Source: a virus
Strand: one strand, 5' to 3'
Virus record (IMG/VR): IMGVR_UViG_3300008952_000048
Span: 1-61,196 of that record
Length of the DNA: 61,196 nucleotides
Positions 18,136 through 55,470 of this stretch are shown piece after piece. The first letter of the stretch is position 1, and every line of letters begins with the position of its first letter. Position numbers and translations under genes: made by a program. The notes beneath the pieces were generated by a model. It was not told the origin of the DNA, did no database searches, and was given only the letters and a program-made list of their open reading frames with translations.

Positions 18136-19973
18136 TGGCAATTAAAAGATACACAGCAGACGCAGACAACACTATTACAAACGCCTTCGAGTCTAACTTA
18201 GAGACTCGCGGAACAGACGCCAACATGGGACTCTCAGATATTATCGAGACATTTGTTATTTATGGTCAAGCATCAAGCTCTTCGCTAGAAGAGTCTAGAA
18301 TTTTAGTTAAATTTCCAGTTGACGAAATACAGGAAGATAGAGATGCCTTAAATGTTCCAGCGTCTGGAAACGTAGACTTCTACCTCCGTGTGCACAATGC
18401 ACCGCATGGCCAGACATTGCCAAAAGATTATAGCTTAAAAATCTTACCAGTCTCCGGAGCTTGGGAAGAGGGTTACGGACTTGATATGGAATCCTACTCT
18501 GACAAGGGTGAGTCCAATTGGGAACAAGCCACAACCAGTCGAGATTGGGTTTGGGATGGTGGAGATTTTCATACCACCCCAGAATTTACTCAAGCTATGC
18601 CACTTGGCACAGAAGATATAGAAATTAATATAACTGACTTGGTGGAGGATTGGCTCTCTGATGACGGAATCGCCAATGACGGATTGGGGATAAACATCTC
18701 TTCCAGCGTTATCGATCCGTTTTCGGTTAATGCCAGCTTCAGTAACGTGAGTTTGGGCAACCAGGACGCGGTGTTGACTGTGCCAAAACAATGGACAGGC
18801 ATGACTGCCGCCGAAACAGCATCTTTTGATAATAGCACTTCAACATGTTATGACTTTGTTTCTGGCACCGGTGCGCCATCTCCAGCCCCAGATCCGTATG
18901 CTGCATGGCTAACTGTCGACATCGGTGCCCAAAACGCTTCCTATGTTGATACCGAGCGAACGAGCTCGATACTTCTTTTCCCTACCGACTCTGGAGAGTC
19001 TCTCTGGGGCGACGTTAATTCTGATTGCACTTATTTGACAGGGAGCACTGTTGTCTTTCTTTTTTCTAGTGGCTCGGTTTTCCCCCACCACAGAAACGTG
19101 ATGGACTTGACATTGCAGCTGCCCTCAAACATAGCTCGCTTCGATCGCTCTTATTATATTAAGAAATTCTTTGCACGAGGTTCAGAGCATTTTTATTTGC
19201 GCCCCAAAATCGAAGCAAGATGGGACTCTTCAAAGAAGGATAGGAGAAATTCTTTTTATGCTTCTAGTTCTCTGGTCCCGGCTGCAGACAATCTAAACAC
19301 ACTATACATTTATAATAGGGTTCGAGGACAACTCCAAAACATTCCAGCCATCGGCACCGGCAGTATTCTTGTTAGCCTATATTCCGGCACAACAGAGCCA
19401 TCGGGTTCCAAAGTATCTTTGTGCGGAGGCGCCACCAACGCGACAGGATCGTGGGTAACTACTGGCATATACTCTGCACAGTTGTGCACAACCTCCAGCG
19501 GCCCCTACCTGTATGATGTCTGGCATTCAGCATCGGTTGAGTATGTTACGGGAAGCAGAATATCTGTTAGAAGTTTTGCTACCGACACCTCTGTTGATAC
19601 GGGCGAATACGTTTCAAATATAACTAATTTAAAAGAGAGTTATGCTCAAACTGAAAGCCCAAGATTGAGAATGTTTGTGAGGGATAAAGATTGGAGCCCA
19701 ACAATTTACACAGTTGCAACAACCAACATTGAGACGAAAGTAATTGAAGATGCTTATTTCAAAGTTTATAGGGTTGCAGATGGCTTTGACGTAATATCCT
19801 ACGGAACGGGCAGTTCAAATTGTACGAGGATGTCTTATGATAAAGATGGAAACTATTTTGATATTGACATGTCCATGTTTGAGTCAGACTATTCATATGG
19901 AATTAAGGTTGCCTATAAAGTAAATGATAGATATGAGGAACAGCCAGAACTTTTTAAATTTAGGGTTGAATAA
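18135..19973 (+). CDS. Structural baseplate/tail protein with DNRLRE-like N-terminal domain
   Basis: A 612-residue beta-rich protein. The N-terminus (RYTADADNTITNAF, then SRILVKFPVDEI, and later INITDLVEDWLSDDG..NDGLGINIS near 168-190) fits the DNRLRE/disaggregatase-related fold, a beta-sandwich that often sits on cell-surface or virion proteins and may bind sugars. The remainder is serine/threonine-rich with long beta stretches and no enzyme motif. It overlaps gp6 and the next wedge gene by single bases (TAATG), placing it in the wedge operon. An identification with a specific T4 protein is not possible from sequence. Confidence 0.65.
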   Translation: MAIKRYTADADNTITNAFESNLETRGTDANMGLSDIIETFVIYGQASSSSLEESRILVKFPVDEIQEDRDALNVPASGNVDFYLRVHNAPHGQTLPKDYSLKILPVSGAWEEGYGLDMESYSDKGESNWEQATTSRDWVWDGGDFHTTPEFTQAMPLGTEDIEINITDLVEDWLSDDGIANDGLGINISSSVIDPFSVNASFSNVSLGNQDAVLTVPKQWTGMTAAETASFDNSTSTCYDFVSGTGAPSPAPDPYAAWLTVDIGAQNASYVDTERTSSILLFPTDSGESLWGDVNSDCTYLTGSTVVFLFSSGSVFPHHRNVMDLTLQLPSNIARFDRSYYIKKFFARGSEHFYLRPKIEARWDSSKKDRRNSFYASSSLVPAADNLNTLYIYNRVRGQLQNIPAIGTGSILVSLYSGTTEPSGSKVSLCGGATNATGSWVTTGIYSAQLCTTSSGPYLYDVWHSASVEYVTGSRISVRSFATDTSVDTGEYVSNITNLKESYAQTESPRLRMFVRDKDWSPTIYTVATTNIETKVIEDAYFKVYRVADGFDVISYGTGSSNCTRMSYDKDGNYFDIDMSMFESDYSYGIKVAYKVNDRYEEQPELFKFRVE

Positions 19974-22900
19974 TGAGTGACGCCAACAGGAGAGCAACGG
20001 CCGCAAAGACCGAAGCGGATTTGCAAGAAGATAACTTGGAGTCCTCCAAGTTAATAACCTCCGAGACAAAACTAGAAAACATAATCGACCCAAGGCTCGA
20101 CTACTCAGATCCATCAACATTTGTAACTTATGGCCTTGCAGAAAAATACTATGTAGCTGCAGTTGAGAATATAACCAACATTTATCCTTACGATGGATCA
20201 AAGCTCGAGAAGACTGAGTGGCACATTTCTGGCTCTGGTCTTGATAATTATGTTTTTGATAACACATACCCTCGAACAAACGGAAGTATTACTTTATCTT
20301 ATGGCGGCTGGGGAGATACAGCCGCATCGTTGGACGAATATGAACTTCCTGTCGATAAAGAATATATCACCGTTTACGGTGGCCCAAATGCCGACAGCAT
20401 GGCAACCAACCTATCTTCACTCTTTCCGTCTGCTGGCGGCAAAGCAAATGTTATCAACGCCCTCGAAAACCAAGAGGCAAACCTTACAATTGGTGGTGGC
20501 AATACTGTTGAATTTTGGATGAAGAAACCTACTTTTGAAAAAGCTCATGAAGTGGTTCTCGATGTTATGCCAAATCAGCTTGTATCCGATGATAGGTTTT
20601 GTATATACTTATCGTCATCTGGCCACATCGGCCTGAAATACAAAGCATCATCTTCCGAAGTGTCTGGCGAATTTCCGGTCACTGGCTTGGACGATGACAA
20701 TTGGCACCATTATGCGATCTCTATTACGCCCTCTGGTGCAGCCACTCTTTATATCGACGGCGCAGCCTCGGATGATGAAGTCACCGGCGACGCCACCACG
20801 AAAGTTGAAACACCACTTGTTGCGACACTAGGATCTTACGCTGGCCCCAAGGCCGCCGATGGCACCACATTACCAACTGATACTCCAGGTTGGTGTAAGC
20901 TGGACGCCTCCCTTGATGAATTTCGATTTTGGAAAACAGATCGTTCCGGGATTGAAATAGGAATTAACTGGAATACGCAGGTTTATGGTGGCACAAATAC
21001 AGACACAGCAAATACTGACTTGGGCGTTTACTTTAAATTTAATGAAGGCATCCTTGGAACATCTCAAGATGCCACGGTCTTAGATTTCTCAGGCAGGATT
21101 TCGAATGGAGCCTGGACTGGATATTCTCCAGGCGCAAGAAGCTTGACTTCTGCAATGGTAGAGTCTGGCGCTTCTGTTTCGGAGTTTAAAGATCCCATCA
21201 TTTACTCTACTCATCCCGATGTGAAAGCCCTCAAAGAACGCCTCCGCGTCGATGGTCTCTTATATGATCAGCAAAACAACGCATCATTATATAATTCTGT
21301 ACCATCTTGGATTAGAGAGGAAGACACCGGCACCCAGAATACTATGAAGTTAATGCAGATTATGTCATCCTATCTCGACACGCTTCAAAATCAACTCACA
21401 GAAATTAACCAGATTAAAAATATATCTTATCCTAGCGGCTCCCAAAAGCCGTATAACATTATAAACAGGAATCTTAGAAACCTTGGGTTTGAAACAGAAG
21501 ATTTCTTTATTGATGCTACTTTGCTAGAGAGGTTCATGGATCGAAACAATCAAGGAGATCTCGAACTTAAAATTACAGATACGAAGAATTTAATCTATCA
21601 GAACATTTACAATAACTTAACTTACATTATGTCTTCCAAGGGAACTGAAAAGTCTTTTAGGAACTTGGTTAGATGCTTCGGGGTCGATGAGAGACTTGTG
21701 AAGCTAAATGTCTATAGTAACGGAGAAATATACACACTCGAAGACAGGTATGCAACTTCGGTATTTAAAAAGAGGATGATCTCTTTCGATGATACTACGA
21801 GGTTTGAGGCAACCATTTTTCAAACTTCAAGTGCCACAACTCCAAGCTTAGGGTACATATCTTCATCTGGTGATTTTGCAAATCTCAATGGAGTAACCTT
21901 GGAAGCAGACATCCTATTTCCAAGTCAGGCCCCGATATCCTCTCCGGATTATTATAACATTCCCTTTAAGAAAGCTTCGCTGTTCGGCATGAAAGAAACA
22001 GACGGCACCACTTATGATTGGCTCCCGACAGACAATGCAGACCTGCAGGTTTATGCTGTGCGGGAACAAAAGAATGGTGAAAGCGCGTATTTTCAACTGA
22101 CCTCCTCACAGCTCGGCATCGATCTTAAAACAGATGTATATGGAGGCGTTTATGATAACGAACGGTGGATCTTCGCTGCAAAGGTTAAAAACCCCGCCAT
22201 CGACACCGACGAAGATTATGTAATAGAATTTCAGGGCTCAAACGCCAACAATGGAATCATTCAAAATTCTTTTACTCTTACTGCCAGCCTTGACAACACA
22301 GAGGCTCTGGCCCTTCTTGGTGCAGACAAGAGATTGTTTGCTGGAGCGTATAAGACAAACTTCTCAGGATCAACTGTCGAGAAGACAAATGTTTTATTTT
22401 CAGCCTTAAGATACTGGGGAAAATACCTCAATGAAGATGAAATCACAAGCCACGCAAAGGATGCCAGAAACTTTGGCCTAAAAGACCCGAATAGACCTGT
22501 ATTTAACGCAGAAAATGATATGCCCGCCATTGACACGCTAAAATTGCATTGGGATTTTGAGCTGGTTAACTCGTCTTCTACGGGGGGAGAATTTGATGTT
22601 TTAGATTTCTCTGGTGGCAACGGCTTATATGGAGATTTTGGAAATATTCACAACGGCAAAGGGTATGGCTTTCCGGCTAGTTCTACTGAGGTTGTGGATG
22701 TTGAATATGTCAATACTTTGACGAGAGTGAACCCCGACGTGGCCAACGGATCAGACATGGTTGATGTCTTAACTCCAGCAGAGCAAATAAAAGAAGAGTT
22801 TTCCCAACCAACAAATCTTGTGTTCGCCATCGAAAAAAGCTTATACCAGACACTATCAGATGAAATGATTAGGTCTTTTTCCACTATAAAGGACTTTGCC

Positions 22901-23545
22901 TCTCTCTACAATAGTGCTGCAGACAAATATAGAAACAAACACGCAGAGATGGAAATAATGAGAAGAAATTTCTTTTCTAAGATGGAAAACTCTCCCGATG
23001 TTAACAAATTTTATGAATATTTTAAATGGATTGATGACGCTGTGGTCCGCATGCTCCGGCAAGTCTTGCCAGCTGGTGCTGAAGTTACGGAGGGATCAAT
23101 CAATATAATTGAAGGCCATATTTTAGAAAGAAACAAGTTTGTTCATAAGACACCGACATATGCGGTGGATAAAGAAATAAACACGATTGCCGTTGTTGTT
23201 AACGTTGCAACAAATGGCGGCGGGAGTGGTATCGGCGCAGCTGCGGACTATAGCGACCCCTTTTGGGATGGAAGACCTTTTTATGAATTGCCGTACTCTA
23301 TGGAATCTGGAGATGTGCACGTTGATGCTGACAGATTGAGAATATTAAATAACCTACACAGCGGCCGCCGTAAGATTTCTCAGGTAGAGTCAACAATACC
23401 AGATGGTGTGTGGCTGGAAGAAAAATCTACAGCCTCTCATATCCCCGCAAACGAAGAATCCGAGATGTCCTCAACCGGCCTTGTTGAGCAGGTTATACGG
23501 AATGGGAAAACTAAAATCTTTGGTAAGATTGTCAAACTTGGATAA
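19973..23545 (+). CDS. Baseplate wedge protein with two LamG-like modules (gp7-position)
   Basis: A 1190-residue structural protein. Residues about 165-385 form a LamG/concanavalin-like domain (NTVEFWMKKP, DDNWHHYAISITPSG, ATLYIDG, ASLDEFRFWK). The central part (TLQNQLTEINQIKNISYPS, NLIYQNIYNNLTYIMSSKG at about 539, then TEKSFRNLVRCFGVDERLVK) looks like the tail-protein-I/wedge core common in marine phages. A second LamG-like region spans about 641-895. The C-terminal part has FYEYFKWIDDAVVRMLRQV and IIEGHILERNKF (about 1013-1058). The length and position after gp6 recall T4 gp7, the wedge initiator, but that equivalence is inferred. LamG modules suggest glycan contacts at the baseplate rim. 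Confidence 0.75.
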   Translation: MSDANRRATAAKTEADLQEDNLESSKLITSETKLENIIDPRLDYSDPSTFVTYGLAEKYYVAAVENITNIYPYDGSKLEKTEWHISGSGLDNYVFDNTYPRTNGSITLSYGGWGDTAASLDEYELPVDKEYITVYGGPNADSMATNLSSLFPSAGGKANVINALENQEANLTIGGGNTVEFWMKKPTFEKAHEVVLDVMPNQLVSDDRFCIYLSSSGHIGLKYKASSSEVSGEFPVTGLDDDNWHHYAISITPSGAATLYIDGAASDDEVTGDATTKVETPLVATLGSYAGPKAADGTTLPTDTPGWCKLDASLDEFRFWKTDRSGIEIGINWNTQVYGGTNTDTANTDLGVYFKFNEGILGTSQDATVLDFSGRISNGAWTGYSPGARSLTSAMVESGASVSEFKDPIIYSTHPDVKALKERLRVDGLLYDQQNNASLYNSVPSWIREEDTGTQNTMKLMQIMSSYLDTLQNQLTEINQIKNISYPSGSQKPYNIINRNLRNLGFETEDFFIDATLLERFMDRNNQGDLELKITDTKNLIYQNIYNNLTYIMSSKGTEKSFRNLVRCFGVDERLVKLNVYSNGEIYTLEDRYATSVFKKRMISFDDTTRFEATIFQTSSATTPSLGYISSSGDFANLNGVTLEADILFPSQAPISSPDYYNIPFKKASLFGMKETDGTTYDWLPTDNADLQVYAVREQKNGESAYFQLTSSQLGIDLKTDVYGGVYDNERWIFAAKVKNPAIDTDEDYVIEFQGSNANNGIIQNSFTLTASLDNTEALALLGADKRLFAGAYKTNFSGSTVEKTNVLFSALRYWGKYLNEDEITSHAKDARNFGLKDPNRPVFNAENDMPAIDTLKLHWDFELVNSSSTGGEFDVLDFSGGNGLYGDFGNIHNGKGYGFPASSTEVVDVEYVNTLTRVNPDVANGSDMVDVLTPAEQIKEEFSQPTNLVFAIEKSLYQTLSDEMIRSFSTIKDFASLYNSAADKYRNKHAEMEIMRRNFFSKMENSPDVNKFYEYFKWIDDAVVRMLRQVLPAGAEVTEGSINIIEGHILERNKFVHKTPTYAVDKEINTIAVVVNVATNGGGSGIGAAADYSDPFWDGRPFYELPYSMESGDVHVDADRLRILNNLHSGRRKISQVESTIPDGVWLEEKSTASHIPANEESEMSSTGLVEQVIRNGKTKIFGKIVKLG

Positions 23546-23598: not shown

Positions 23599-26004
23599 AT
23601 GTCAACAAAAAATATCGTGCCAAGAACAGGAAGTGATGGCGGAAAAATTGGAACTGATTCAAAGCATTGGAGTGAGGGCCATTTTGATAGTATCACTGGT
23701 TCGCTTCTTGGCGACGTTGTTGGTAACATAACCGGTGATATCTCCGGGGATGCAGACACTGTTGACAGCAAGCATGCAACAGACTTTACTTTAGATTATG
23801 TTACAGACAACGATAATACCACAACAAATGAGATTACGGCATCCGCAATAGCTCTCAATATCATTGGTGATGCAGCCGGCGATCAAAGAATTTATCTAAA
23901 TGTAACTCCGGACGTCAACGCAACTGTGATAAAAACCCCCGTCGGGACTAACAGATTAAAAATCTCCGATGGCGGCAGTACCTTTTTATATGACAACGGC
24001 GGAAACACAAGAATTAACATTGGCAACAGCGCCGATCTTATCCTAAACTCTGAAGGTGGGGATAATGTACAAATAACTGGTTCACTTTTTGTCTCCGGGT
24101 CTTCCCGCTTCGGAAACGAATTAACTGATACGCACCAATTTACAGGCTCTTTTTTACAAACTGGTTCTGGCGGAACAAGCGTTTTCAATGATCGCGTTGA
24201 GGTGGTAGGTACTTTATCTGCCTCATACTTCGAAGGAATCAACCTCACAGCCTCCGGTCACGTCTCTGCCTCCGCCTTTTATGGCGATTTCTTTGGCGAC
24301 GGCTCTGGCATCACTGGCGTAACAGGCGATTGGGACGGGCAACATGATGGCGACGCGGGAATTACGGGTTCTCTAGAGCTTTCCGGCTCAAACGCAAAAC
24401 TTATGATTGACGCAACTTCTTCTGGTGTAAGTTTAGCAATTGGCGGTGACTTAGGCTTAACAGACGCAAGCAACATAAAAAGAATCTCTGTTGTCTCTAC
24501 TGATGCCGCTTTCGCTGGTTTCGGGAACGATAATGATAACAGAGGTTATATTGGATGGGATTCTGGCACTTTAGGCGGCCTACCGTATTTGGAGATAGGA
24601 ACGGTACAGGATGGCGTATCATACCCAGACACGATAATTGTCGACGAAGGTCAGGTAGAGGTATCTGGCTCCCTCACAGTCGCCAACTCCGTTTACGCCT
24701 ACGGAACCATCACTTCCCCTTCAAAGGGATTCCACGCGGGATCTTCATATGGACCTCTTGCCAATGAATACTTGTTCATGGGCCCCAAAAACTCATTGGG
24801 CCCGACAATAGACTTTGGCCAACACAACAACGGACTCCCAGCCGCCCGAATCTTTTCTGAATCCGGCTCCTCTAACACCGGCCATTTATATATATCGGCC
24901 AGCAATCACATGTATTTCAAGCTGCCCGGTAACGACCAAATCATAATCTACAACGAAGGTTCTGATTTCGTCCCACCATCAAACGGCGGAACTCTACTTG
25001 TTCATGGTGAAGATAACGTTTCGGAATATATAGCAATGGGTGTTATGAGCCAATCTTCTGGGTTGGGACTACCCACTATCACTGGCGGAGGCATTGGAAC
25101 AACGCCTGCCTCACTAGCTTTCAGAACAGCCGACGCAGGAGTCGAAGCAGTTCGAATGCTGATCGACACAACGGGCTCTGTTGGCATTGGAACAGCAACC
25201 CCCGACCACACCCTTACAGTTGTTGGCGATATCTCTGCCTCCCTCAGTATCTCTGCCTCCGCCTTCTATGGCGACGGGCAATATCTTACTAATCTTCCTG
25301 GCGGATCGCCGGGAGGACAAGAGACTTATATTCAATATAACTCTGGCAGCGCGTTTACTGGCTCTAGCAAACTTTATTTTAACGACACAAACAATAATGT
25401 GTGCTCTGGTGCAATGCTTAATACTCGATATGCGAATATTACTATTACTAATGGCTATTGCCCCGAATCAGCTGGACTTTATTCCATGGACCCAGCAATA
25501 AACTTCCGTGTCCTTGGTCCCGCCGGCACCCCAGTTGGGGACGATTCTTGGATCATAGGCGGCAATGGCCAGTTCACGTTTAATGGCACAGGATCTTTCA
25601 CCGACGAGCTTCGTGTCACAGGTCTTCTGGAGTGTTACAATAATATCAGCCTCGGCGGCGGCCAACTCTGGGATAGCGGCCACGACCTTACCACAAAAAC
25701 AGCTAACTTTGACATTGACTGGGATGACGGCATGACACAGGAAGTGATTCTGTCAGGCACGACGGCGACCACCTTAACTGCATCTTTTAGTAATATCAGA
25801 CCTTACGCAACATATCAATTCATAAACAAAATCGGGAAAGACAATATGGAATTAGAATTTAATCAGAGTATCTTCTGGCCCGGAGGAGTAAGACCAACCC
25901 TTAGTAATGTTTCCGGTTCCCGCGATGTTATTACATTTACCACGGACGGCGACTCCAACATGTATGGAGTGGCCCAATTTAATTTTAGCGCATCGGTGGG
26001 TTAA
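23599..26004 (+). CDS. Tail fibre protein
   Basis: An 801-residue fibre. The N-terminus (NIVPRTGSDGGKIGTDSKHW) is the type seen on fibres that attach to a baseplate. The shaft is low-complexity beta repeats: GNITGDISGDADTVDSKHAT, ITGSLFVSGSS, and repeated SASAFYGD units near residues 222 and 551 followed by DGSGITG or DGQYLTN, typical of trimeric beta-helical shafts. The C-terminal 100 residues (FDIDWDDGMTQEVILSG, ATYQFINKIGKDN, SIFWPGGVRPTLS) form a beta-sandwich tip common at marine phage fibre ends. There is no visible intramolecular chaperone (S74) domain. It is followed after 3 bases by the propeller adhesin. Function in host recognition is inferred from architecture. Confidence 0.85.
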   Translation: MSTKNIVPRTGSDGGKIGTDSKHWSEGHFDSITGSLLGDVVGNITGDISGDADTVDSKHATDFTLDYVTDNDNTTTNEITASAIALNIIGDAAGDQRIYLNVTPDVNATVIKTPVGTNRLKISDGGSTFLYDNGGNTRINIGNSADLILNSEGGDNVQITGSLFVSGSSRFGNELTDTHQFTGSFLQTGSGGTSVFNDRVEVVGTLSASYFEGINLTASGHVSASAFYGDFFGDGSGITGVTGDWDGQHDGDAGITGSLELSGSNAKLMIDATSSGVSLAIGGDLGLTDASNIKRISVVSTDAAFAGFGNDNDNRGYIGWDSGTLGGLPYLEIGTVQDGVSYPDTIIVDEGQVEVSGSLTVANSVYAYGTITSPSKGFHAGSSYGPLANEYLFMGPKNSLGPTIDFGQHNNGLPAARIFSESGSSNTGHLYISASNHMYFKLPGNDQIIIYNEGSDFVPPSNGGTLLVHGEDNVSEYIAMGVMSQSSGLGLPTITGGGIGTTPASLAFRTADAGVEAVRMLIDTTGSVGIGTATPDHTLTVVGDISASLSISASAFYGDGQYLTNLPGGSPGGQETYIQYNSGSAFTGSSKLYFNDTNNNVCSGAMLNTRYANITITNGYCPESAGLYSMDPAINFRVLGPAGTPVGDDSWIIGGNGQFTFNGTGSFTDELRVTGLLECYNNISLGGGQLWDSGHDLTTKTANFDIDWDDGMTQEVILSGTTATTLTASFSNIRPYATYQFINKIGKDNMELEFNQSIFWPGGVRPTLSNVSGSRDVITFTTDGDSNMYGVAQFNFSASVG

Positions 26005-26007
26005 ATA

Positions 26008-29000
26008 ATGTCAAATTACGGGCAGCAAAAATATCTCAGCTCTTCGGTGATTGTCTCAGGCTTAGATAAACCAAAGGGCATCCACGTACCCAAAAAGGGT
26101 GAAACGTATGATGGAGAGATCTATTGGTCAGAGCTTGGCTCTACCGAAGAAGATATTTTACCCAGCGACCGCGAGTCAAAAAAGAATACTGAAACCTTTT
26201 TTCATACGCCGGGCTCCCTAACGGAAAGCTGCTCTAAAAGCACCCTTGGGGTAATAAAAAGAGGAAATCTAAATGGCCTCGGCCAAATCTATGATATAGA
26301 AACGATTCAGACAGGAAACATTTACGGTGACGGAGTTTGTGCGCCCTTTCTCGGAAATTCCTTATATATCGACGCCACCACCGGATCTGCGCTCTGCTGG
26401 ACAGATGTTCTAGGGGGCAGATATGATGTAAAAGGAGGTTATTATGGATTTGTGGGTCACTCTCGATTAAATGAGTCCGGCACAGAGGCCACCACTTATC
26501 CCTATTTTTATTGGGGTTCAGACGAACCCGGAATTAACCAAGCCGGCTGTACTTGGATTACTGGCAGTCATCACAGCGCCGGCCAAACGCCGGGAATACT
26601 CTGGGCTTCACAACGAGAAGGTGCCACCGGACTTTGTTATAAATCGTCTTCTTTGAGCCCAAACTCGGCATCAATGCAGATATGGTCCTCCTCTCTCGCA
26701 CAACCCAACGGTCCCGGACAATTCCCCTATTCTGTGGCGTATGATGAATCTGAAAATTATGTTTATTGGACAACTTTGGGTTCATCGGAGGGAGATGGCA
26801 CCGCTGGAAATAACAGAAACTTCTCAGGAAGCGATGGGAAGATTTGGCGTGGCAACTTGGACTTAACAAATTTAACCATGAGCAATGTAGAGGTTTTGGT
26901 GGAGGGTTTTTATCCGACGGCATTAACACCCTCATACCAACCCGCCGGGCACTCTTGCACAAATTATCCAATTGCCTTATCTTTGGATCTAGATAGTCGC
27001 TACATATATTGGTCTGCCGGAAAACTCCAAACGGAAATGGGCGAACAGTGCTTTCCGCTCATAGCGTTTCAAAACTATGAAGGCGGCCCACAGCGAAGCA
27101 TTTATCGCTGCTCGATGGACGGCACACATCAGACTTTTAAAACTGGATTAGGAAACCCCTATGGCGTCGCCGTTGATAGTAAGAACAGAAAGCTGTATTG
27201 GGCAGACCAGTCTGGCGACGAGATTAAGAGAGCCGATCTTGCACCCGGTTCAGCTGCCGATACCATCATATCTAGTGGTGAAGGCTCCGCAGACGGAGTT
27301 TATGATCTCGCCCTCGATGTTGATGCTGACAAGCTATTCTACATAACAAAGGATTCGATTTTAAAAATATTCTCTTCTAGCTTAGATGGTTCCGGAGGTG
27401 GCACACTTATAGACAGTTACAGTTCCTCCACTCCCCGTGGCATTGCCCTCGATACGTCTGCTCAAAAAATCTACTGGACAGACTCAAGCAGACACTGGGT
27501 TCAACGTATGGACTATGACGGCTCGAACAAAGAGACACTGGTTGATGATACGGGAACACACCCAATCGAAAACCCTGGCGGAATTACCCTAGATACGGCT
27601 GCCGGACAGATGTATTTTACAGAGTTTTACAACGGCGCCGAGGCAATTTTAAGGGCCCCAATGGACGGAACATCATCAGCCCCCGTCGAGACTTTAGTGC
27701 ATTCATCTTCGGTGTTTCCCATGAATTTTCCATGTGGAATTGATTTAGATATCCCCAACCGGCTAATGTATTGGGTAGACGGGACGACCGACACCACCGT
27801 ACCTTATGATGGTGTCTGGCGAGCGTCCATGGATGGAACAGCCTCATACAGAGGAGCCCCAGAAATGCTTATAAATCTGTCCCCCGACGGAGGATCGGGG
27901 GTTATAACGAGGTATATTTCTCTCGACCGGCCCGGAAAGAAAATGTATTGGAGCGACTCGGAGACGGACATAATCCAATATGCCGACATGTCTCCGGTTC
28001 AAGAGGTTGTATCGAATTTAAATATGCCAATGGCAACTTCCATTGCAGATGGCCACCTATATTGGACAGATATGGTTGATGGAACAATATCTCGTCGACC
28101 TCTTGTGGGCACCGGATATTATGCGCCTGTAGGAACACAGCCGATGGACAGAGATGTTTGGTATAGTAAGTTCCAACAAGTAAAGAACTTGCCGGAATCT
28201 TCAGAAATTAAAGATTCTTCCATAGACCAGATAAACAAGAAGATATATTGGCTAGCGTCCGGATATACAGAATCTTTTGAACAAGAGCATCCTGGATATT
28301 CAGCTACAAGCAGTGCAGACCCCGCCGATTCGTATGTGGGGAATTTTAGTTCCAGTGGAAACTGGTATAACGGATACCAGGGGGCATCCCCGGATGGAAC
28401 AGATGCAAAACCCTACGCATTTTTGTGGAGGAAGGGAACAACCCCATCTGGAAATACCGGGCCCACAAACGCCTACAGGGGGGATTACTATGCCTATTGC
28501 GAAGCATCCGACAATCCCGCCAACGACGGCCCCCAAGGCCCCGGAACCAACTACAAGATTTTTGAAATGTCTAGGTCATTTGGGACAGCACACACTGTTA
28601 AAGAGATGTCGTTTTGGTATCACATGTTCGGCGCCGCCATGGGCACCTTGGAGGTTTCGAGAAGCACAAATGGTACAGATTGGAACGGACTTACGTTTTA
28701 TGCCGATGGTATATCCACCACCTCATTGTCTGGACAGCAACAAACCGCCAGTGCAGATCCGTGGCGCGAAGCCACCGTCAATCTTTCGGCCATGGCCGGC
28801 TCATCATTTTATGTAAAAATACGATCCATTACGGGTGATAATTACACAGGGGATCTATCAATTGATTATATTCAATTTGACCCATCAATAAAAAGATCAG
28901 ATCTCGACGGCGGAAGCGTCGAAGATATCCTTACGGGCTCTGTAGCCGACGGCGCAGCCCGTATCGCAGTTTCGCCGGAGAATGATAGATTCTATTGGGC

Positions 29001-30726
29001 TGACAACGATCTTAATACTTTAAATTCCGGAAGCATCACTACCACCTCATCTTATGGGGCAATCACCTCAAGTCTTCCCTCCTCTGTTGGCGGCTTGGCA
29101 TATAATTACTTGGATGATGTAATTTATTTCTCTTCGGGCTCTTCTGTTTATGCGGTGACGGGAACTTCTGGAGACTCAAACCTCTTGTATGAGGTGGGCA
29201 TTGCAAGCGAGATCCTAGATATCAGGTATGACCCAAGAGGGATCGAAAAATATAGCGGCCTCCAGGGTCGCATATATATGCTGACTAGGTATGACGATGC
29301 CCCCTACAACGGCATGCATATTACTTCATTCATGGACAAGCATGGCAAAAATGATGAAACTGTTTGCTATAACGATTGGGAAAATTATACGACCGTTGAC
29401 TATCCCTCTCCTACATCGATGGAGCTCGATTTGGATAGGAGAGACGCATATTTTCTTAATCACGGAGAGGAATTTGCAATTGTCACAAAGTGCCCGATGG
29501 CAGAACCCATCGCCACCTACCCGCCATCAGCAATGCCGCCATTCCCTCCCATTGCTCGCTACCCCATCGCAGGAACAACGGGATCTGAAAACTTACCAAC
29601 AATACTTTCAACGAATAGGTCAGGCTACCCAGACTATTACGATATCGACAACCTCAGCGTCCCAGATGCCGTTCTTAGGACAATTTTCTATACGGACGGG
29701 AATAACACTGACATTCTAAAGAGGGATAAGTCGGGCCTCTATTTCGGGTCTCAAATTTTGGTCCACGAGACATATGAAAATGCAAATGGCTGCGCTGTAG
29801 ACTATTACAATAAGAAAGTTTATTATACTAAATATGGCGGCGGCGAAGCATATGTTCAATCCTCTAGTTTTGATGGATCGAATTGGGGCACCGTTGCTGG
29901 CACTTTCGGTGCAGCGGGTGTCACTATTCGTGGTATTGCAGCTGCCCCCAAGCTTGGTAAAATATTCTGGTGCCGTCGCAACGGTTCGGATCCTGCAGAC
30001 AACACAATTTATAGCGCATCACTACACGGCGAAAACATCGGAGTTGTCCTATCGGGCCTCCAAGATCCTTATGATGTTGTGATTGATCAGGAAAATAACA
30101 AACTTTACTACGTAGATGGCGCCAACGGAGCCCCCGGCGGATACTGGACAAACCAAGTATTTAGTGCCAGCGTCGACGGATCAAATCACGGCCCACTTAA
30201 CAGCGAGATACAAACTCTCCTCCAGACTGATGTTAATGATAGCTGGGGCAACCCAGCTATAGATTTAGACCGCCTCAGTCAAACTTTATACTTTGTCGGC
30301 CGCTATACCGGAACCCCAACAGACACCAGAGTCCACAAGTGTGATATCTACGGAAAGAATGCATCTCTTATCCTAAGAGACCAGCAGCCAGACTCTATAA
30401 ACCCAATTGACATTTTGGTGGACCCATGGGCAGACAGACTTTATTATATGTTTAATGACACTCCTGATTATTGCATGTCTAGTAGCTTATCCAACCCCGG
30501 TACTGGCTCTGAGAATTTATCTGGAGTGGCGTGGATACCGACGGGAAGCGGTGGTCCATCCTTATTAAAAATGTCTTTTTACTTTGAAGGTCGTGGGAAG
30601 AATGTAAATAGGTACTCCGGACCAGACCTGTATACGATTACCAACTCTGGCTCAAATGGCGATATTTCCAGAACCTCATCACCACTCGTAATTCTAGGAA
30701 CCAACAGTGAGCCAAACAAGACATAA
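26008..30726 (+). CDS. 1572-residue adhesin with YWTD-type beta-propellers and a MAM-like domain
   Basis: A tail-associated protein built from LDL-receptor class B (YWTD) type repeats. About twenty blades can be counted, e.g. NYVYWTTLG (250), KLYWADQSG (395), KIYWTDSS (487), LMYWVDGT (586), KMYWSDSE (645), HLYWTDMV (683), then after an insertion RFYWADND (994), TIFYTDGN (1225), KVYYTKYG (1270) and LYYVDGA (1365), enough for about three six-bladed propellers. Residues about 755-960 look like a MAM domain (ESFEQEHPGYS, GDYYAYCEAS, MSFWYHMFGAAMGTLEV, DLSIDYIQF). These modules mediate protein or glycan adhesion in other organisms. No catalytic motif is seen. It starts 3 bases after the fibre stop; receptor binding is the likely role, by inference. 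Confidence 0.8.
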   Translation: MSNYGQQKYLSSSVIVSGLDKPKGIHVPKKGETYDGEIYWSELGSTEEDILPSDRESKKNTETFFHTPGSLTESCSKSTLGVIKRGNLNGLGQIYDIETIQTGNIYGDGVCAPFLGNSLYIDATTGSALCWTDVLGGRYDVKGGYYGFVGHSRLNESGTEATTYPYFYWGSDEPGINQAGCTWITGSHHSAGQTPGILWASQREGATGLCYKSSSLSPNSASMQIWSSSLAQPNGPGQFPYSVAYDESENYVYWTTLGSSEGDGTAGNNRNFSGSDGKIWRGNLDLTNLTMSNVEVLVEGFYPTALTPSYQPAGHSCTNYPIALSLDLDSRYIYWSAGKLQTEMGEQCFPLIAFQNYEGGPQRSIYRCSMDGTHQTFKTGLGNPYGVAVDSKNRKLYWADQSGDEIKRADLAPGSAADTIISSGEGSADGVYDLALDVDADKLFYITKDSILKIFSSSLDGSGGGTLIDSYSSSTPRGIALDTSAQKIYWTDSSRHWVQRMDYDGSNKETLVDDTGTHPIENPGGITLDTAAGQMYFTEFYNGAEAILRAPMDGTSSAPVETLVHSSSVFPMNFPCGIDLDIPNRLMYWVDGTTDTTVPYDGVWRASMDGTASYRGAPEMLINLSPDGGSGVITRYISLDRPGKKMYWSDSETDIIQYADMSPVQEVVSNLNMPMATSIADGHLYWTDMVDGTISRRPLVGTGYYAPVGTQPMDRDVWYSKFQQVKNLPESSEIKDSSIDQINKKIYWLASGYTESFEQEHPGYSATSSADPADSYVGNFSSSGNWYNGYQGASPDGTDAKPYAFLWRKGTTPSGNTGPTNAYRGDYYAYCEASDNPANDGPQGPGTNYKIFEMSRSFGTAHTVKEMSFWYHMFGAAMGTLEVSRSTNGTDWNGLTFYADGISTTSLSGQQQTASADPWREATVNLSAMAGSSFYVKIRSITGDNYTGDLSIDYIQFDPSIKRSDLDGGSVEDILTGSVADGAARIAVSPENDRFYWADNDLNTLNSGSITTTSSYGAITSSLPSSVGGLAYNYLDDVIYFSSGSSVYAVTGTSGDSNLLYEVGIASEILDIRYDPRGIEKYSGLQGRIYMLTRYDDAPYNGMHITSFMDKHGKNDETVCYNDWENYTTVDYPSPTSMELDLDRRDAYFLNHGEEFAIVTKCPMAEPIATYPPSAMPPFPPIARYPIAGTTGSENLPTILSTNRSGYPDYYDIDNLSVPDAVLRTIFYTDGNNTDILKRDKSGLYFGSQILVHETYENANGCAVDYYNKKVYYTKYGGGEAYVQSSSFDGSNWGTVAGTFGAAGVTIRGIAAAPKLGKIFWCRRNGSDPADNTIYSASLHGENIGVVLSGLQDPYDVVIDQENNKLYYVDGANGAPGGYWTNQVFSASVDGSNHGPLNSEIQTLLQTDVNDSWGNPAIDLDRLSQTLYFVGRYTGTPTDTRVHKCDIYGKNASLILRDQQPDSINPIDILVDPWADRLYYMFNDTPDYCMSSSLSNPGTGSENLSGVAWIPTGSGGPSLLKMSFYFEGRGKNVNRYSGPDLYTITNSGSNGDISRTSSPLVILGTNSEPNKT

Positions 30727-30794: not shown

Positions 30795-33700
30795 ATGAGC
30801 AACGACGGAAACAAATCAGCAAGAAGAGTCCCATTCACAATGTTCAGTTCCTCCGCAACAGGAGGGTACTTAACAGACCTACATGCAAACTTCACTTCCA
30901 GCATAGAAATAAACAACATGCACACGGATACTTATGGAGATTTCCGGCATCCTCCGATGCAAGGTCCGTTTACTGAGCAACACGTTGGCGGAATGCCCCA
31001 CCGACACACCAAGATTCTTTTGTCGGGAGACATGGAGTATATTACCACAAACGTTGATGGGCCAGATGGTTATTGGGATGAGACGCCCCTCTATGTGACT
31101 CCTTTGGATTCCCCCGTCAGCACAGATACAGTTTGGCAATTGGACGGCAGCGGTGATTTAACTCCGCTAACGGGAGCATTGATTTCAAACAATACTATAT
31201 GGGAATTGGTGGATGCCGATACTGCCCTCTCACCCGGCGAGCCCGACGAGGAGAGTTATTGGCGAATCTATAAAACGGACTGCAAACCAGAGGGATTCTA
31301 TATTATTCCCCTTGCCGGCAATTTAAATGTATATGGCGCAGATTATGGAACAGCCCCTCGCTCTTGGCTTTATCGAGACGAGTTTGCAAAACGGCCATTG
31401 AACATTAGAAATATCAAAAGTGGAGACGCATGCACTGTTGTGGGCAATTTTAGCATGGAATACGAAGTTGTTCAGATCGCAGGAAGAACAATAAATCCTA
31501 GACATTATGCAGAATATCCAGAACAATATACAGCCGAATTCCCTCTCCATCGGGGAACAGAAGGAAGGGTTTTAAATACCCTCAACGAAGACGGCCAACC
31601 AGCCACAGGAACCCTTCCCGATTACACTCTTCCCGACAATACAGGCTCTCTTAACAACTTCATCTTTGTAAGCAAATTCTCAGCCCCCGGCGACAGATAC
31701 ACAATGTCTCGTGGATTTTTAAATCCAATTGGCGAGGAGCTGTCGGCCTACAATGCGAGTCCATTTAGAAACTTGACAGCCAAAGCTGAATTATCTGAAG
31801 ACTTGGCAACGCATACGCCGAAAGCAACCGATATCCCGCCTCTATCTGGCACCCTCTACCACACAACAAACCGGAATACGAGATTATATAAAGAATTATC
31901 TGGCTCTTCTTCTGATGTTGTTATAGATAAACTTGTGTATGACGACGGATATGTAACTCACGCCATACCTCAGAGTACATTGCAATATAGTTGGGTTACT
32001 GCCTCGGCCGTTACAACCCGCAGCGAATTTCCAGGGTATGCCACCGGAAGTGATATCGCCTTCTATTCAAATAGCGTCGGCTTTGATTCCCCAATGAACA
32101 ATGTTTATATTGATCCGGTTAATGCTACACAATCTTTTGATTCCTCCGGCTCCGTATATGGATATAACAGTTGGAAGGAAATCCGAGGAGGAGAAAGAAG
32201 ACTCTCCAGGTATTACAGGGAACACAATATTCTCCCCGTCACCAACGAGGTCTCTGAAAAGACAACTCAATATATTGAACCACCAGTTGTGGCAAAACAC
32301 CTGCCAATGGAACATGAGTTGGCAATTGATGCGACAGGAACCCCATTCCTCCTCTCAAGTGTTTATGGAAACAAACTAACTCGTTATTCAAACAACGCAA
32401 TTAATGTACTTTATAATTTTTGGGTATCGGATGCGAATACTAAATATGCGGAGCTAAAAAGTTTATATATCAACAGTTCAGTGCCAGCAGCAAACAATCC
32501 AGTTAAAGCATTTTATTCTTTGACTTATGGACAAACCTTGTGGCCCAAGGACGAAAACGCCTTTATGAAAAAGGTAAGAGTAAGAGGAAATTACCAAGAA
32601 GTGCCGGGGACAGGCTTGCGAGGATACGACAGATTATACGGAACTCAGAACAAAATGAATAGCCCCAATCTGATGAGAGATCCAACCGCTCTAAATTCAC
32701 AAGGAGTTGCTAACGCATCTTTGGCTTTCGATCCGATGAAGACCGACGGCGCCAACTCCTTTCCAAATCTTGGCACCGGCGTAACGCCTGGAGTTTTCTC
32801 CGGCGATGTGGGAGAGCTTAATTTTGATACTGACAGATCTTTCACATCAAGCGCCTCTCCAATATCTTCTTTAGACTTTTTTGAAACGAACTACCTCCGT
32901 GTTGACTTGACGAGCAGCGACTACAATGAGAGACTTATCGAGCAAATGTCAGGAAAAAACAGATGGTATGACAACTATGATGATTATGAGGAAAACATGA
33001 GAGGCATGAAAAAGGAAACCTCAATCCTCCCAGAGTTTAGAATTTCGGAACACATGGATTATTATATTAATGAGGCAGCAGGAAATTTCCGGGCAGAGAA
33101 TAAGAACTTTCTCACTCTCCTCGGAGCAAACTACACCTCCTCAGCCGAGACACAAACTTCTACAACCTTCAATGTGGATTTTGATAATACCTATTTATCA
33201 TCCGAGGAATTTGATCGCTTGAAGCAAATTAGAGACGATCACCTCACCTATGCGAAGCCAAAGAAAATAACCCTCAAAGCAACGGGGGTAAAGAAGCTGC
33301 TTCCCTATAACGGGTTCTACCCGGATACGAGGACAGTTCAGCTTGGCAACTTACTTAGCGAATCATTGTCGGCGGATATTGTGGGGTATAAAGCAGATCC
33401 TACAAATCCCGACATTGAGGAGACTTTTTTGGAAAGATCTGATGAACATGGATACGAGGCTTTCTTAAAATCCCTTGCTTCTCCGGGACTTTTGTATAAT
33501 ACTATGAAGGCTGGCATCGCAGTTAGTTATCCTGTTTATAGTCAGATCCCTGCAACATCATCTGTTCCGTTTGAGCCTCCGTTTGAAGTTGGATCAAATG
33601 CTCGCCTTATAAACCCAACTGCCGAAATGGCCCTTTCTTCTAGCGTAACGTCTAATTTCACTCTTCCCTTCGAGGCGCTTGTTAACTTAAATGAAAACTT

Positions 33701-36700
33701 ACCAAAGGGAGAGAGGGTTCATTTAGTGAGTTCAAATCCGGCCCAACTTGAGGAGGGTTCTTTTGCTACGAGTTCTCTATATTATGGAAAGTGGGGAGGC
33801 TCGAAGAAACCAAATTTTGAAATAGCTGCACATAATTATCTGGCCGAAAGTGTTAATTTCTTTTTAAAGAAATCACAACTTAACACATTTTTATCGGCCC
33901 CCCAAGTTGAGTTCGCGGATGTGGAACCAGACAAGAAATACTATATGGATGTGGTCTTGAGGGACGATGCGGAGATGAATAAGTTCGCTGAATATGGCGG
34001 TGTAACTGCTTCCTGGCCAGTCTTTGAAGATGTGAGTGAAGATATTCTACAAAGCGCGCCCAACTTAGGAGCAGGAACAATTGTTAAATCTGCAATTATT
34101 GAAGATGGTTCCGGTGGCGCATATTCCCTTTGGGCAACTTCAAGGACCGTATGTGATAGCACTAATTCTTCCGATGTTTATTTTGTTCATACCTCTGATA
34201 TTGGATATTCGAGACTCCTTCAAACAATTCCATCCCCAAATACAAATGATGCCTTTGGGTATTCGATGGATATTTGTTCTGGCACAGTCGGTCGAACCTC
34301 CTCCGACATATTATTCACTGTTAGTGATAATTCGATGCTTGACGATGGGACGCAATATTTTGTCTTATCCACTGGTTCGGCCGGCGAAACATATAAATTT
34401 GTTTGCACATCGTCGGTGACAGGGGACATAGCTCCCAACATTTTTGAATTCGAAAAAGACATCAACGCAAAGGAGAGTGCCACAAATCTCGCAGCCGTGA
34501 TCAACTTATCAGCATCAGAGTTCACTGCGACCGCCTTTAACCCAGACTCGGTGAATAATTATTATTATATCAGAATTTCTTCTTCTGTTGCTGAAGCCAC
34601 CGCCAACGCCTACAACCTTACATCAACCTTGTCTAATACCACGCCCACCGACTCTTTACTCAGCGGAGGGTCTGACGGAGAACAGGGCAACTTTTTTATA
34701 ATCGGTGCACCATGCACCGCCCCAGAAGATCTTTTAGACTGGGAAGACACCTCTTTTGGTAATTGCTCTGAAAACGACGTTTATGCATATCCGCATGGCC
34801 AGGGACAATACAGCGAACTGCCCGCTGCCCGAATGCAAACTGGCAGTGCTTATCTTTATTCCCACGTCCCTAGTTCGAACAAGCTTACGCTGGAAGAAAC
34901 AATTAGTCCTCTATGGCTGTTTTATAAAGGCGGGATGTCGGGTCCTGATCCATGCGTTCCTTATGGAAACAGTGAAACACCAAGGCATTGTAGTGGTGTC
35001 GGCAAAGCCGTCGCAATTTGTAATGATAATCAATACCACGATCAGGCCATCAATGGCATTCATTGGGCTGTGGCAGCAAACTACGTTAACTCCTCCATCG
35101 GCACCAGCGGAGATCTCTATTATCCAATGCAGGGCGTAGCACTTTGGATGAACTATCAAAGGGCCGGCGATTTTGACCAATACTCTGACCCTTTAGAAAC
35201 CGGCCCTGCTTATCTTTTAGATGGCTGGTACCCTACATTCCCTGGGTCAAACCCTGGAGACGAACAAGCAACGTTGTCCCTTTCGATAGGCGCCGACAAT
35301 ACAGGCAAAGTAAGGGCCGTCATAGCCGCATCGGATATTTCTGCATCCACGACTGGCAATGTTGCCTGGGCAACGTTTGAAGAGGGCCCCTCTAAAAGTG
35401 CACCATGCCCCGTTCTAACTGGCCCACCATCCCCCTCACCCGGCGTTACGGGCTCAATAATACATAATGCATCCACAACGGAAGACTCTTGCAGGGTCGC
35501 GGTGTCAGCAATAAAGAACGCCCCGGATGCTGATTTTCATTATGCCATATCGTATCAGACTGATGGTTGCGTCGCAAGCAACTGCTTATTTAAGTTAACT
35601 GTAAGTTCTTCTGTTGTTGGAACCTCCACGACCCCCACTTCATTCGCCGATCACGATGGCACTTCCGATATGAGTCCCGCAATTGCCTTTGCCCTCGGCG
35701 GCCCAATGACAGGAACCTTGTTGAACTCAGTAAACGATCCAGTTTCTATTGATATGTATTCTATACCACTTCCAGCATCCCCAGGATCCCTTCCAACTCC
35801 AGATACAGTCCTTACCACTCCGGCATCAAGCGAACAAGTGAAACATCTTGGATTTTCAGTTAATCCTTCGGGCCTCTGGAATCGGTTTATCTCTTTAGGT
35901 CAATATGGAGAAGATGGCGCCGGCGATGATTTTTTCATAATTTATGATGCACCCCGTGAACTAAACTATAAGCAGCATGGGAGATTATTTGGATTGCCAG
36001 TTGACGATATATATGATCCGGCCTACATTCAGTATACTCCTCCTGGGTTTTATGGCGAGTCCATTGCCCGCATAGCCTTTTCTTCTAGCACTGGCCAAAC
36101 TGTATCTCTTGATGAAATTATAGCATCATCGGTTGTGGACGAGATTCTCACCTTGAATCAGGGGAAAATAAAATCATCCAAAACCGGCCTAGATAGATCT
36201 TTATTCTCCACTCAGGATTCTGCAAAAATGCCGGTTTCATCTTCTGTTAGTTTGTTCGGAAAAGTAATTCAACCAGACATCCAATTTTCAGTAGGCGCCG
36301 ACGGAGATGCCACAAGTGCAGATAGAGCAACATCTGGTGACGTTAATAAGGCTAGGTGGGCCATTTCAACAAAGTATGAATGCCCAGTCTTAAATGTATC
36401 TTCAAGTCTGTATGCTGAAAATTATAGCTCTCACTATCCTGATCTAGAGGACAACCCTATTTGGGAAAATGGAAATAACTCTTTTCGCCTTCCAAGTTCC
36501 GTGTGGACAAGCTACGGCCAACCTGTAGCCCCAGAAAAGGGATATTATTTTGAGCTCCGAGAAAATCCAGAAAAAACACCTTCAGACGGATCTTTAATCC
36601 AGCTTTGCGGCTTCACTGCCGGAACAAAAAAGATTGGCACCGTTGCAGATCAGAGAGTGATGAGCGAGGCAATTATGGTCATTCCATATTTAGATCGCAA

Positions 36701-37310
36701 GATTCCCCACAAGACAGTTGAAATCGAAAGTGGGAAGCACTTCATCCGGTACAGCCGAACTGAGCTTAAGAGGCAAAAGGCGAACATAGAAGATAAGGGA
36801 TATGCAATTGATTCTGATATCACTGCAACCTCTATATCCGAACAGATCACCGGCATGAAAAATTATGTCATACCACCTCAATACAATTTTATACAATACG
36901 ATGATATTAAGCCATTTGCTTATTATTTCCTCGAATTCGATCATACACTGAGCCAGCGAGATTTAATTGACATTTGGCAAGGTGTAATGCCTTCGATTGC
37001 AATGAACCCTGAAACAGATGAGGTAGAGATCTCTCACGATATCGATAAGTATAATTTCTTTTACAATGTAAATTTCCCAACTGATATAAAGTTCATGGTA
37101 TTTAAGGTGAAGAAGAAAGCAGGCTGGAACTACTACGAAATTACGGCAGACTCCAAGGATGATACGAGATTTAAATTCGATTTTCAGGGAGATGGACAGG
37201 TAGAAGTTGTGCCCGACTATAATTACAATTGGCCTTATGATTTCTGCTCTCTTGTGGAGCGAGCAAAGGTTGACGTTAGTGTTACTTTCAAGAAGGATGG
37301 AGAAGAATGA
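30795..37310 (+). CDS. 2171-residue virion protein with an FG-GAP-like region
   Basis: A very large beta-rich structural protein, probably a tail appendage. Residues about 1089-1480 contain repeats resembling degenerate FG-GAP (integrin-alpha type) blades: NDAFGYSMDICSG, GNFFIIGAPCTAPED, GSAYLYSHVPSS, GVGKAVAICND, HWAVAANYVN and GVALWMNYQ. The C-terminal 250 residues contain conserved-looking mixed segments (VMSEAIMVIPYLDRKIP, then YFLEFDHTLSQRDLIDIWQG). There is no coiled-coil-rich stretch, so it is unlikely to be the tape measure. No transmembrane segment or enzyme motif was noticed. It overlaps the next gene by 4 bases. Family not recognised; the role is inferred from size and neighbours. 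Confidence 0.65.
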   Translation: MSNDGNKSARRVPFTMFSSSATGGYLTDLHANFTSSIEINNMHTDTYGDFRHPPMQGPFTEQHVGGMPHRHTKILLSGDMEYITTNVDGPDGYWDETPLYVTPLDSPVSTDTVWQLDGSGDLTPLTGALISNNTIWELVDADTALSPGEPDEESYWRIYKTDCKPEGFYIIPLAGNLNVYGADYGTAPRSWLYRDEFAKRPLNIRNIKSGDACTVVGNFSMEYEVVQIAGRTINPRHYAEYPEQYTAEFPLHRGTEGRVLNTLNEDGQPATGTLPDYTLPDNTGSLNNFIFVSKFSAPGDRYTMSRGFLNPIGEELSAYNASPFRNLTAKAELSEDLATHTPKATDIPPLSGTLYHTTNRNTRLYKELSGSSSDVVIDKLVYDDGYVTHAIPQSTLQYSWVTASAVTTRSEFPGYATGSDIAFYSNSVGFDSPMNNVYIDPVNATQSFDSSGSVYGYNSWKEIRGGERRLSRYYREHNILPVTNEVSEKTTQYIEPPVVAKHLPMEHELAIDATGTPFLLSSVYGNKLTRYSNNAINVLYNFWVSDANTKYAELKSLYINSSVPAANNPVKAFYSLTYGQTLWPKDENAFMKKVRVRGNYQEVPGTGLRGYDRLYGTQNKMNSPNLMRDPTALNSQGVANASLAFDPMKTDGANSFPNLGTGVTPGVFSGDVGELNFDTDRSFTSSASPISSLDFFETNYLRVDLTSSDYNERLIEQMSGKNRWYDNYDDYEENMRGMKKETSILPEFRISEHMDYYINEAAGNFRAENKNFLTLLGANYTSSAETQTSTTFNVDFDNTYLSSEEFDRLKQIRDDHLTYAKPKKITLKATGVKKLLPYNGFYPDTRTVQLGNLLSESLSADIVGYKADPTNPDIEETFLERSDEHGYEAFLKSLASPGLLYNTMKAGIAVSYPVYSQIPATSSVPFEPPFEVGSNARLINPTAEMALSSSVTSNFTLPFEALVNLNENLPKGERVHLVSSNPAQLEEGSFATSSLYYGKWGGSKKPNFEIAAHNYLAESVNFFLKKSQLNTFLSAPQVEFADVEPDKKYYMDVVLRDDAEMNKFAEYGGVTASWPVFEDVSEDILQSAPNLGAGTIVKSAIIEDGSGGAYSLWATSRTVCDSTNSSDVYFVHTSDIGYSRLLQTIPSPNTNDAFGYSMDICSGTVGRTSSDILFTVSDNSMLDDGTQYFVLSTGSAGETYKFVCTSSVTGDIAPNIFEFEKDINAKESATNLAAVINLSASEFTATAFNPDSVNNYYYIRISSSVAEATANAYNLTSTLSNTTPTDSLLSGGSDGEQGNFFIIGAPCTAPEDLLDWEDTSFGNCSENDVYAYPHGQGQYSELPAARMQTGSAYLYSHVPSSNKLTLEETISPLWLFYKGGMSGPDPCVPYGNSETPRHCSGVGKAVAICNDNQYHDQAINGIHWAVAANYVNSSIGTSGDLYYPMQGVALWMNYQRAGDFDQYSDPLETGPAYLLDGWYPTFPGSNPGDEQATLSLSIGADNTGKVRAVIAASDISASTTGNVAWATFEEGPSKSAPCPVLTGPPSPSPGVTGSIIHNASTTEDSCRVAVSAIKNAPDADFHYAISYQTDGCVASNCLFKLTVSSSVVGTSTTPTSFADHDGTSDMSPAIAFALGGPMTGTLLNSVNDPVSIDMYSIPLPASPGSLPTPDTVLTTPASSEQVKHLGFSVNPSGLWNRFISLGQYGEDGAGDDFFIIYDAPRELNYKQHGRLFGLPVDDIYDPAYIQYTPPGFYGESIARIAFSSSTGQTVSLDEIIASSVVDEILTLNQGKIKSSKTGLDRSLFSTQDSAKMPVSSSVSLFGKVIQPDIQFSVGADGDATSADRATSGDVNKARWAISTKYECPVLNVSSSLYAENYSSHYPDLEDNPIWENGNNSFRLPSSVWTSYGQPVAPEKGYYFELRENPEKTPSDGSLIQLCGFTAGTKKIGTVADQRVMSEAIMVIPYLDRKIPHKTVEIESGKHFIRYSRTELKRQKANIEDKGYAIDSDITATSISEQITGMKNYVIPPQYNFIQYDDIKPFAYYFLEFDHTLSQRDLIDIWQGVMPSIAMNPETDEVEISHDIDKYNFFYNVNFPTDIKFMVFKVKKKAGWNYYEITADSKDDTRFKFDFQGDGQVEVVPDYNYNWPYDFCSLVERAKVDVSVTFKKDGEE

Positions 37311-55467: not shown

Positions 55468-55470
55468 TAT

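Follow-up and report, generated by a model that had tools for sequence, protein, structure and literature searches.

Why would a phage tail locus encode YWTD propellers together with a MAM domain, modules usually discussed as parts of animal cell-surface proteins? The question is raised by a 61,196-nt viral sequence (IMG/VR record IMGVR_UViG_3300008952_000048, referred to in full as the window), in which an earlier note, made from the letters alone, had described a 1572-residue tail protein with about twenty YWTD blades and a MAM-like domain inserted between propellers, directly after a tail fibre gene. The reading frame itself is exactly as drawn: it opens with an ATG, runs for 1572 residues with no internal stop, and encodes 16 cysteines (Table 1). 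Over 19.5 kb that include this ORF, the window has an identical counterpart in a second IMG/VR contig (metagenome 3300007513), which makes an assembly accident unlikely.

Table 1. Features of the 1572-aa protein and of its surroundings in the window, by position.
Feature	Coordinates	Strand	Basis
Baseplate wedge protein (gp6-like) that anchors the locus	16342..18135	+	PHROG baseplate wedge 2.3e-20; immuto baseplate wedge 31%
1190-aa protein, N-terminal half of the giant ORF in most relatives	19973..23545	+	Laminin_G_3 domain above cut-off
801-aa fibre-like protein, first of the inserted pair	23599..26004	+	immuto tail spike match; N-terminus common to G003 944-aa protein
Stop/start junction GGTTAAATAATG	25999..26010	+	sequence; putative translational coupling
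1572-aa YWTD-propeller/MAM protein	26008..30726	+	ORF and translation; Pfam Ldl_recept_b and MAM above cut-off
Best-supported six-blade YWTD propeller, residues ~320-580	26965..27747	+	AlphaFold2, Foldseek
Seven consecutive YWTD blades, residues 382-709, 27-63 bits each	27151..28134	+	iterated blade HMM
Left half of MAM-interrupted blade, residues 738-749, HMM positions 7-18	28219..28254	+	blade HMM
MAM domain with N-terminal extension, residues 752-960	28261..28887	+	Pfam, AlphaFold2/Foldseek, 36-45% identity to bacterial MAMs
Right half of MAM-interrupted blade, residues 960-977, HMM positions 24-41	28885..28938	+	blade HMM
Additional YWTD blade, residues 982-1020	28951..29067	+	iterated blade HMM
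Three more YWTD blades, residues 1258-1399	29779..30204	+	iterated blade HMM; LRP2 E 6e-12 for C-terminal part
2171-aa protein, C-terminal part of the giant ORF	30795..37310	+	YWTD and MAM modules within the G003 and L203 homologues
T4-type large terminase and portal	53872..57420	+	PHROGs; TerL 45% identical to that of the closest isolate, Flavobacterium phage immuto

The repeats were identified by several routes. Pfam Ldl_recept_b scores 48.3 bits with the whole protein and 71.7 bits with residues 305-751 (cut-off 21), and a sequence search of the PDB with the entire protein retrieves LDL-receptor-type propellers only (LRP2, LRP4, LRP6, LDLR, and nidogen); the region C-terminal of the MAM domain, searched alone, finds LRP2. 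An HMM built from YWTD blades taken from a 358-kb IMG/VR contig and from a Calditrichaeota genome scores 212 bits, compared with 6.2 for the best of 200 shuffled copies. Upon iteration, 13 blades outscore all 300 shuffles, the highest of which reaches 3.9 bits, with the blade split by the MAM domain counted once; they lie at residues 239, 382, 430, 474, 522, 574, 634, 674, 738/960 (the split blade), 982, 1258, 1306, and 1352. About 5-7 further blades are discernible but weak: within residues 1-306 (including 36-90), at 323, at ~1029-1230, and at 1410-1500 (including 1466). The claim of tandem YWTD blades is thus upheld, with 13 of them supported by these scores; the figure of about twenty is plausible, the remainder being weak.

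Do these blades close into rings? The propeller and MAM regions were modelled as separate jobs; a joint MAFFT alignment overlaid the propellers on the MAM domain. Given an input alignment with six propeller relatives, AlphaFold2 builds a probable six-blade ring at residues ~320-580 (block pLDDT mostly 70-96), for which the top Foldseek matches are LRP6, megalin, LRP4, and LDLR (2.1-2.7 Å over ~250 columns), a fit that may be due in part to the YWTD sequences in that alignment. Such a ring is modelled and fold-matched at this position only; other possible propellers are not modelled confidently, and those near the C terminus are poorly modelled because their relatives are too few. Both the profile search and the structure prediction, proposed as checks in the earlier note, therefore came out in favor of a YWTD propeller.

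The MAM-like domain is confirmed as well. Pfam MAM matches residues ~815-957 with 32.4 bits in the whole protein and 37.4 bits in the separate part (cut-off 26.4); the core of the domain is the sole confident part of the second AlphaFold2 model (pLDDT ~80-91) and is most similar to the solved MAM jelly-rolls of SR-C and neuropilin-1 (8yt7, 1.4e-6; 5l73, 1.5e-5), with low TM scores because the model is mostly disordered. Next come the cleaved-adhesin K domains of Porphyromonas gingivalis Lys-gingipain (1.4e-4), which have the same jelly-roll fold as MAM; however, this match is weaker than that to MAM, and Pfam finds no match to the cleaved-adhesin family. The domain resembles the MAM family (PF00629; neuropilin-1, RPTP mu, meprin, SR-C, and bacterial counterparts) in profile and fold but, unlike animal MAM domains, contains a single cysteine (C831 within residues 752-960) in place of the four conserved ones, which are also absent from most aligned bacterial relatives.

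Where does the MAM domain sit? Its placement between propellers does not hold: the two matches of the blade HMM that flank it are complementary halves of one blade, separated by 210 residues that correspond to MAM, arguing that MAM is nested within a single blade. The layout reads NKKIYWLASG-[MAM]-IKRSDLDGGSVEDILTG, with MAM in the loop that follows the YW strand. The left half-blade, also delimited as residues 739-749 (HMM positions 8-18), is short and weak alone, so that the nesting call depends mainly on the complementary HMM coordinates; when joined, the halves score 32.7 bits, a result that is suggestive only, since controls with a shuffled left half average 24.5 bits and reach 35.6.

If the modules are best known from animals, did the phage take them from one? 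The strong summed similarity of the YWTD repeats to LRP2 and LRP6 in the PDB would fit horizontal capture of an animal gene, although this owes most to which structures the PDB happens to hold. Against it, sequences related to the MAM domain at 36-45% identity are bacterial, mostly from (marine) Bacteroidota, whereas animal MAM sequences match with E values of 0.03 or worse, and the phage domain retains a single cysteine; YWTD propellers are present in bacteria, and DGS-VEDL-type blades are found in Calditrichaeota as well as in the 358-kb IMG/VR contig. The protein shares with the YWTD propeller family (PF00058; LDLR 1ijq, LRP6, LRP4, megalin, nidogen) the YWTD motif, a period of ~40 residues, and, in the modelled part, a predicted six-blade ring, but it is not a cell-surface receptor, its blades are irregular with long insertions, and one of them holds MAM. 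Pfam detects neither EGF nor LDL-A modules next to the propeller, and the 1572 residues include only the 16 cysteines noted above; the protein is not filed under the LDL receptor family. Animal capture was rejected on the MAM similarities and the missing EGF modules, and its likelihood is negligible; the animal angle of the earlier note is not supported. The phage MAM domains could not be placed in a MAM tree (few columns, long branches).

The locus itself is viral. The window covers part of the genome of a T4-like phage, with genes for TerL, portal, and a gp6-like baseplate wedge, and also for a RuvC-like resolvase, a primase, and an SbcC-like protein. Its TerL is 45% identical to that of Flavobacterium phage vB_FspM_immuto (Immutovirus) and 43% to that of Microcystis phage Mel-JY01, making a Bacteroidota host likely. 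On one strand, the baseplate wedge gene is followed by genes for proteins of 612, 1190, 801 (the fibre), 1572, and 2171 aa. The 801-aa protein contains a 43-residue stretch 60% identical to a tail spike of immuto, and its gene ends 3 bp upstream of the YWTD-MAM start, in agreement with the position assigned earlier directly after a tail fibre gene; the spacing suggests coupled translation of the two genes. In immuto, also T4-like, the corresponding stretch starts from a baseplate wedge gene and continues with a counterpart of the 1190-aa gene, with genes for tail fibres and tail spikes farther along; in the phage collection that includes immuto, the 1572-aa protein has no YWTD or MAM match. 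The giant neighboring protein matches nothing in PDB or PHROG, even by profile or member scan. Elsewhere in the window, a 2580-aa protein (8096-15838) has a Laminin_G_3 match just under the cut-off.

By its setting, the 1572-aa protein is itself a putative tail protein, a view to be weighed against its own sequence. Residues 1-306 find no match by sequence or profile search, and their AlphaFold2 model is poor; nothing in the protein is recognisable as a coiled coil, an attachment domain, or a region for trimerisation, and neither Pfam nor PHROG matches it to any established fibre fold or to a chaperone or trimerisation domain. If the gene had been taken over from a host surface protein and were expressed during infection in the manner of a moron, with its product never part of the virion, it would share its domain types with bacterial surface proteins, as it does, and its slightly higher GC content (0.47, versus 0.40-0.44 in most other large genes) could be accounted for. 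Yet the fibre gene is equally raised in GC, the YWTD-MAM gene lies inside the tail operon and is coupled to that fibre gene, and cassette versions are found within the giant tail protein of relatives; there is also no evident signal-peptide-like N terminus by eye and, unlike in MAM proteins with T9SS tails, no Pfam match to Por_Secre_tail. A non-virion protein of this kind is very improbable.

Related phages reveal how mobile these modules are likely to be. In the closest relative, G002, whose primase, SbcC-like, and TerL genes show 94-96% identity to those of the window, the 1190-aa homologue is followed directly by the 2171-aa homologue: the 801-aa and 1572-aa genes are both absent, the rest of the tail locus is kept, and the 48-bp intergenic sequence resembles that between the 1190-aa and 801-aa genes of the window. 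Relative to G002, the fibre and YWTD-MAM genes form a two-gene insertion. The 1190-aa and 2171-aa proteins are separate in the window virus, G002, G003, and L206, and their homologues are fused as one ORF in 31 of the 36 informative relatives, some of which are near-copies of each other. Such fused ORFs in G006, L231, and other relatives span ~3000-5100 aa and lie beside a baseplate wedge gene; they too are without a PDB or PHROG identity.

The same modules turn up inside this giant protein. G003 lacks a separate 1572-aa gene, and its 2171-aa homologue carries an internal 265-aa YWTD cassette of six blades between the flanks NTR(L/Y)YK and YDDGYVTHAIPQ, which in the window protein are joined via a short linker. 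In L203, the joined ORF has a MAM-like domain at the site of residues ~67-188 of the window 2171-aa protein; it is 30% identical to the window MAM, with a Pfam score of 20.7 bits, under the cut-off. The two modules combined in the 1572-aa protein thus occur singly, at two sites, in the neighboring giant protein of relatives. G003 also has a 944-aa fibre homologue, which shares the N-terminal 262 aa of the 801-aa protein; its gene (L035:7533-10364) encodes weak YWTD-like blades in the C-terminal half (residues ~680-820) and is possibly another fibre-propeller fusion.

What could such a protein do? A structural or assembly role in the virion, in which propellers would serve as spacers or docking faces connecting the fibre with the edge of the baseplate, making no host contact, has some appeal: the YWTD propellers of LDLR and LRP6 are protein-interaction faces, the gene is coupled to the fibre gene across a 3-bp gap, and the modules are embedded in the conserved giant protein of relatives. 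It is nevertheless unlikely, because G002 lacks the entire gene while keeping the remaining tail locus, and because the modules differ among close relatives, as parts that contact the host do. Still less probable is an adhesin for the environment, which would attach the phage to mucus, particles, or polysaccharide of algae or animals in the surroundings of its hosts; Laminin_G_3 domains in neighboring virion candidates and carbohydrate-binding modules among the fold neighbors of MAM, weaker than MAM itself, would agree with it, but the MAM relatives are bacterial surface or secreted proteins, which fit ligands on a host or in a biofilm equally well.

We favor, with good though incomplete confidence, a peripheral tail or baseplate adhesin of the receptor-binding type, the partner of the fibre protein in a fibre-adhesin pair that holds the phage to a host ligand. 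This reading draws on the tail locus, the coupling to the fibre gene, gain and loss among relatives, the sharing of modules with the giant protein, and a MAM domain on the fibre of another phage (see below); the receptor-binding architecture proposed in the earlier note is a reasonable extension of the tail locus, the distribution of the cassettes, and that fibre, its role being putative. The protein would be made as the second product of the pair, encoded between the two halves of the giant tail protein; its tandem six-blade propellers would offer flat faces that bind protein or glycan, with the MAM jelly roll displayed as a side-arm from the loop of one blade; and the adhesin would tether the phage to a surface ligand of a host, probably Bacteroidota-like, before the contractile tail fires. 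Virion presence, ligand binding, host, and timing are all things that we infer.

How unusual is this combination? Modular receptor-binding proteins of phages and propellers on phage proteins are already known. Propeller lectins occur on eCIS fibres, that is, on phage-tail-like proteins (PMC12923769), in a text from which the terms "YWTD", "MAM domain", and "low-density lipoprotein" are all absent. The propeller-bearing phage proteins in BFVD (for example those of Agrobacterium phage Atu_ph07 and Synechococcus phage S-CBWM1) and the eCIS propellers differ from the window protein in being of other propeller types, with 8-14% identity. When the full-length protein, the MAM regions, the propeller of G003, and one of canonical type were used as tblastn queries against 50,697 GenBank phage records, none gave a match, and in the open-access papers searched no YWTD or MAM module in a phage tail locus, single or nested, was found, which is not proof of absence; to that extent, the earlier remark that no described phage example of this combination is known is supported. 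The search for the architecture elsewhere was fruitful for single modules (the giant protein of G003 and L203, the L046 fibre, bacteria) and not for the combination in annotated phages.

The fibre in question is a 996-aa protein in contigs L046 and L047, which have a T4-like TerL and portal: MAM scores 39 bits near the N terminus, at residues ~100-262, the protein matches a tail-fibre PHROG, and in L046 its gene lies near those for TerL and portal. The L046 phage is T4-like and unrelated to the window phage. The 358-kb contig that supplied blades for the HMM (L092, IMGVR_UViG_3300017963_000188) has four YWTD ORFs, of which three are consecutive (1213-1390 aa, also given as 1380, 1387, and 1209 aa) and encode canonical propellers, two of these three holding two six-blade rings each; the terminase models and the T4 portal model gave no hit in it, its phage status being that given by IMG/VR.

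Other IMG/VR contigs tell a separate story. About 39-40 of them (L048-L056 and L058-L090 except L064 and L081; mostly 20-90 kb) encode one clade of MAM proteins, with a C-terminal T9SS sorting domain in L062 and L079 among the members scanned; L062 has a nearby ribonucleotide reductase gene that matches a phage family. In some of these contigs, a phage may encode a protein that its Bacteroidota host secretes; alternatively, they are bacterial contigs that were misclassified. The idea that all 46 IMG/VR MAM loci encode phage fibres was rejected, since a Por_Secre_tail T9SS domain is present in three of eight examined and ~40 form the separate clade; matches to rhizobial plasmids were dropped because the matched frame has stops and overlies other genes.

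On the best reading, the protein is a virion adhesin whose binding modules are exchangeable and come from a pool shared across the lineage. A more far-reaching proposal, which we advance tentatively and would not yet bet on, is that the lineage maintains a dedicated module-exchange site: the giant tail protein would be split or opened to accept YWTD and MAM cassettes that also circulate in Bacteroidota-type surface proteins, and here these would have been moved out and combined by nesting into a separate receptor-binding protein of a new class. The 1572-aa protein looks like a swappable surface-binding part and not like an animal-derived gene. If this is true, YWTD propellers and MAM domains belong to the host-recognition toolkit of phages, and their arrangements as a separate protein, as a cassette within a protein, and at a fibre tip could be compared in a tractable way to learn how receptor-binding modules pass from one protein to another, with a hint of one adhesin pool common to phages and the surface proteins of Bacteroidota.
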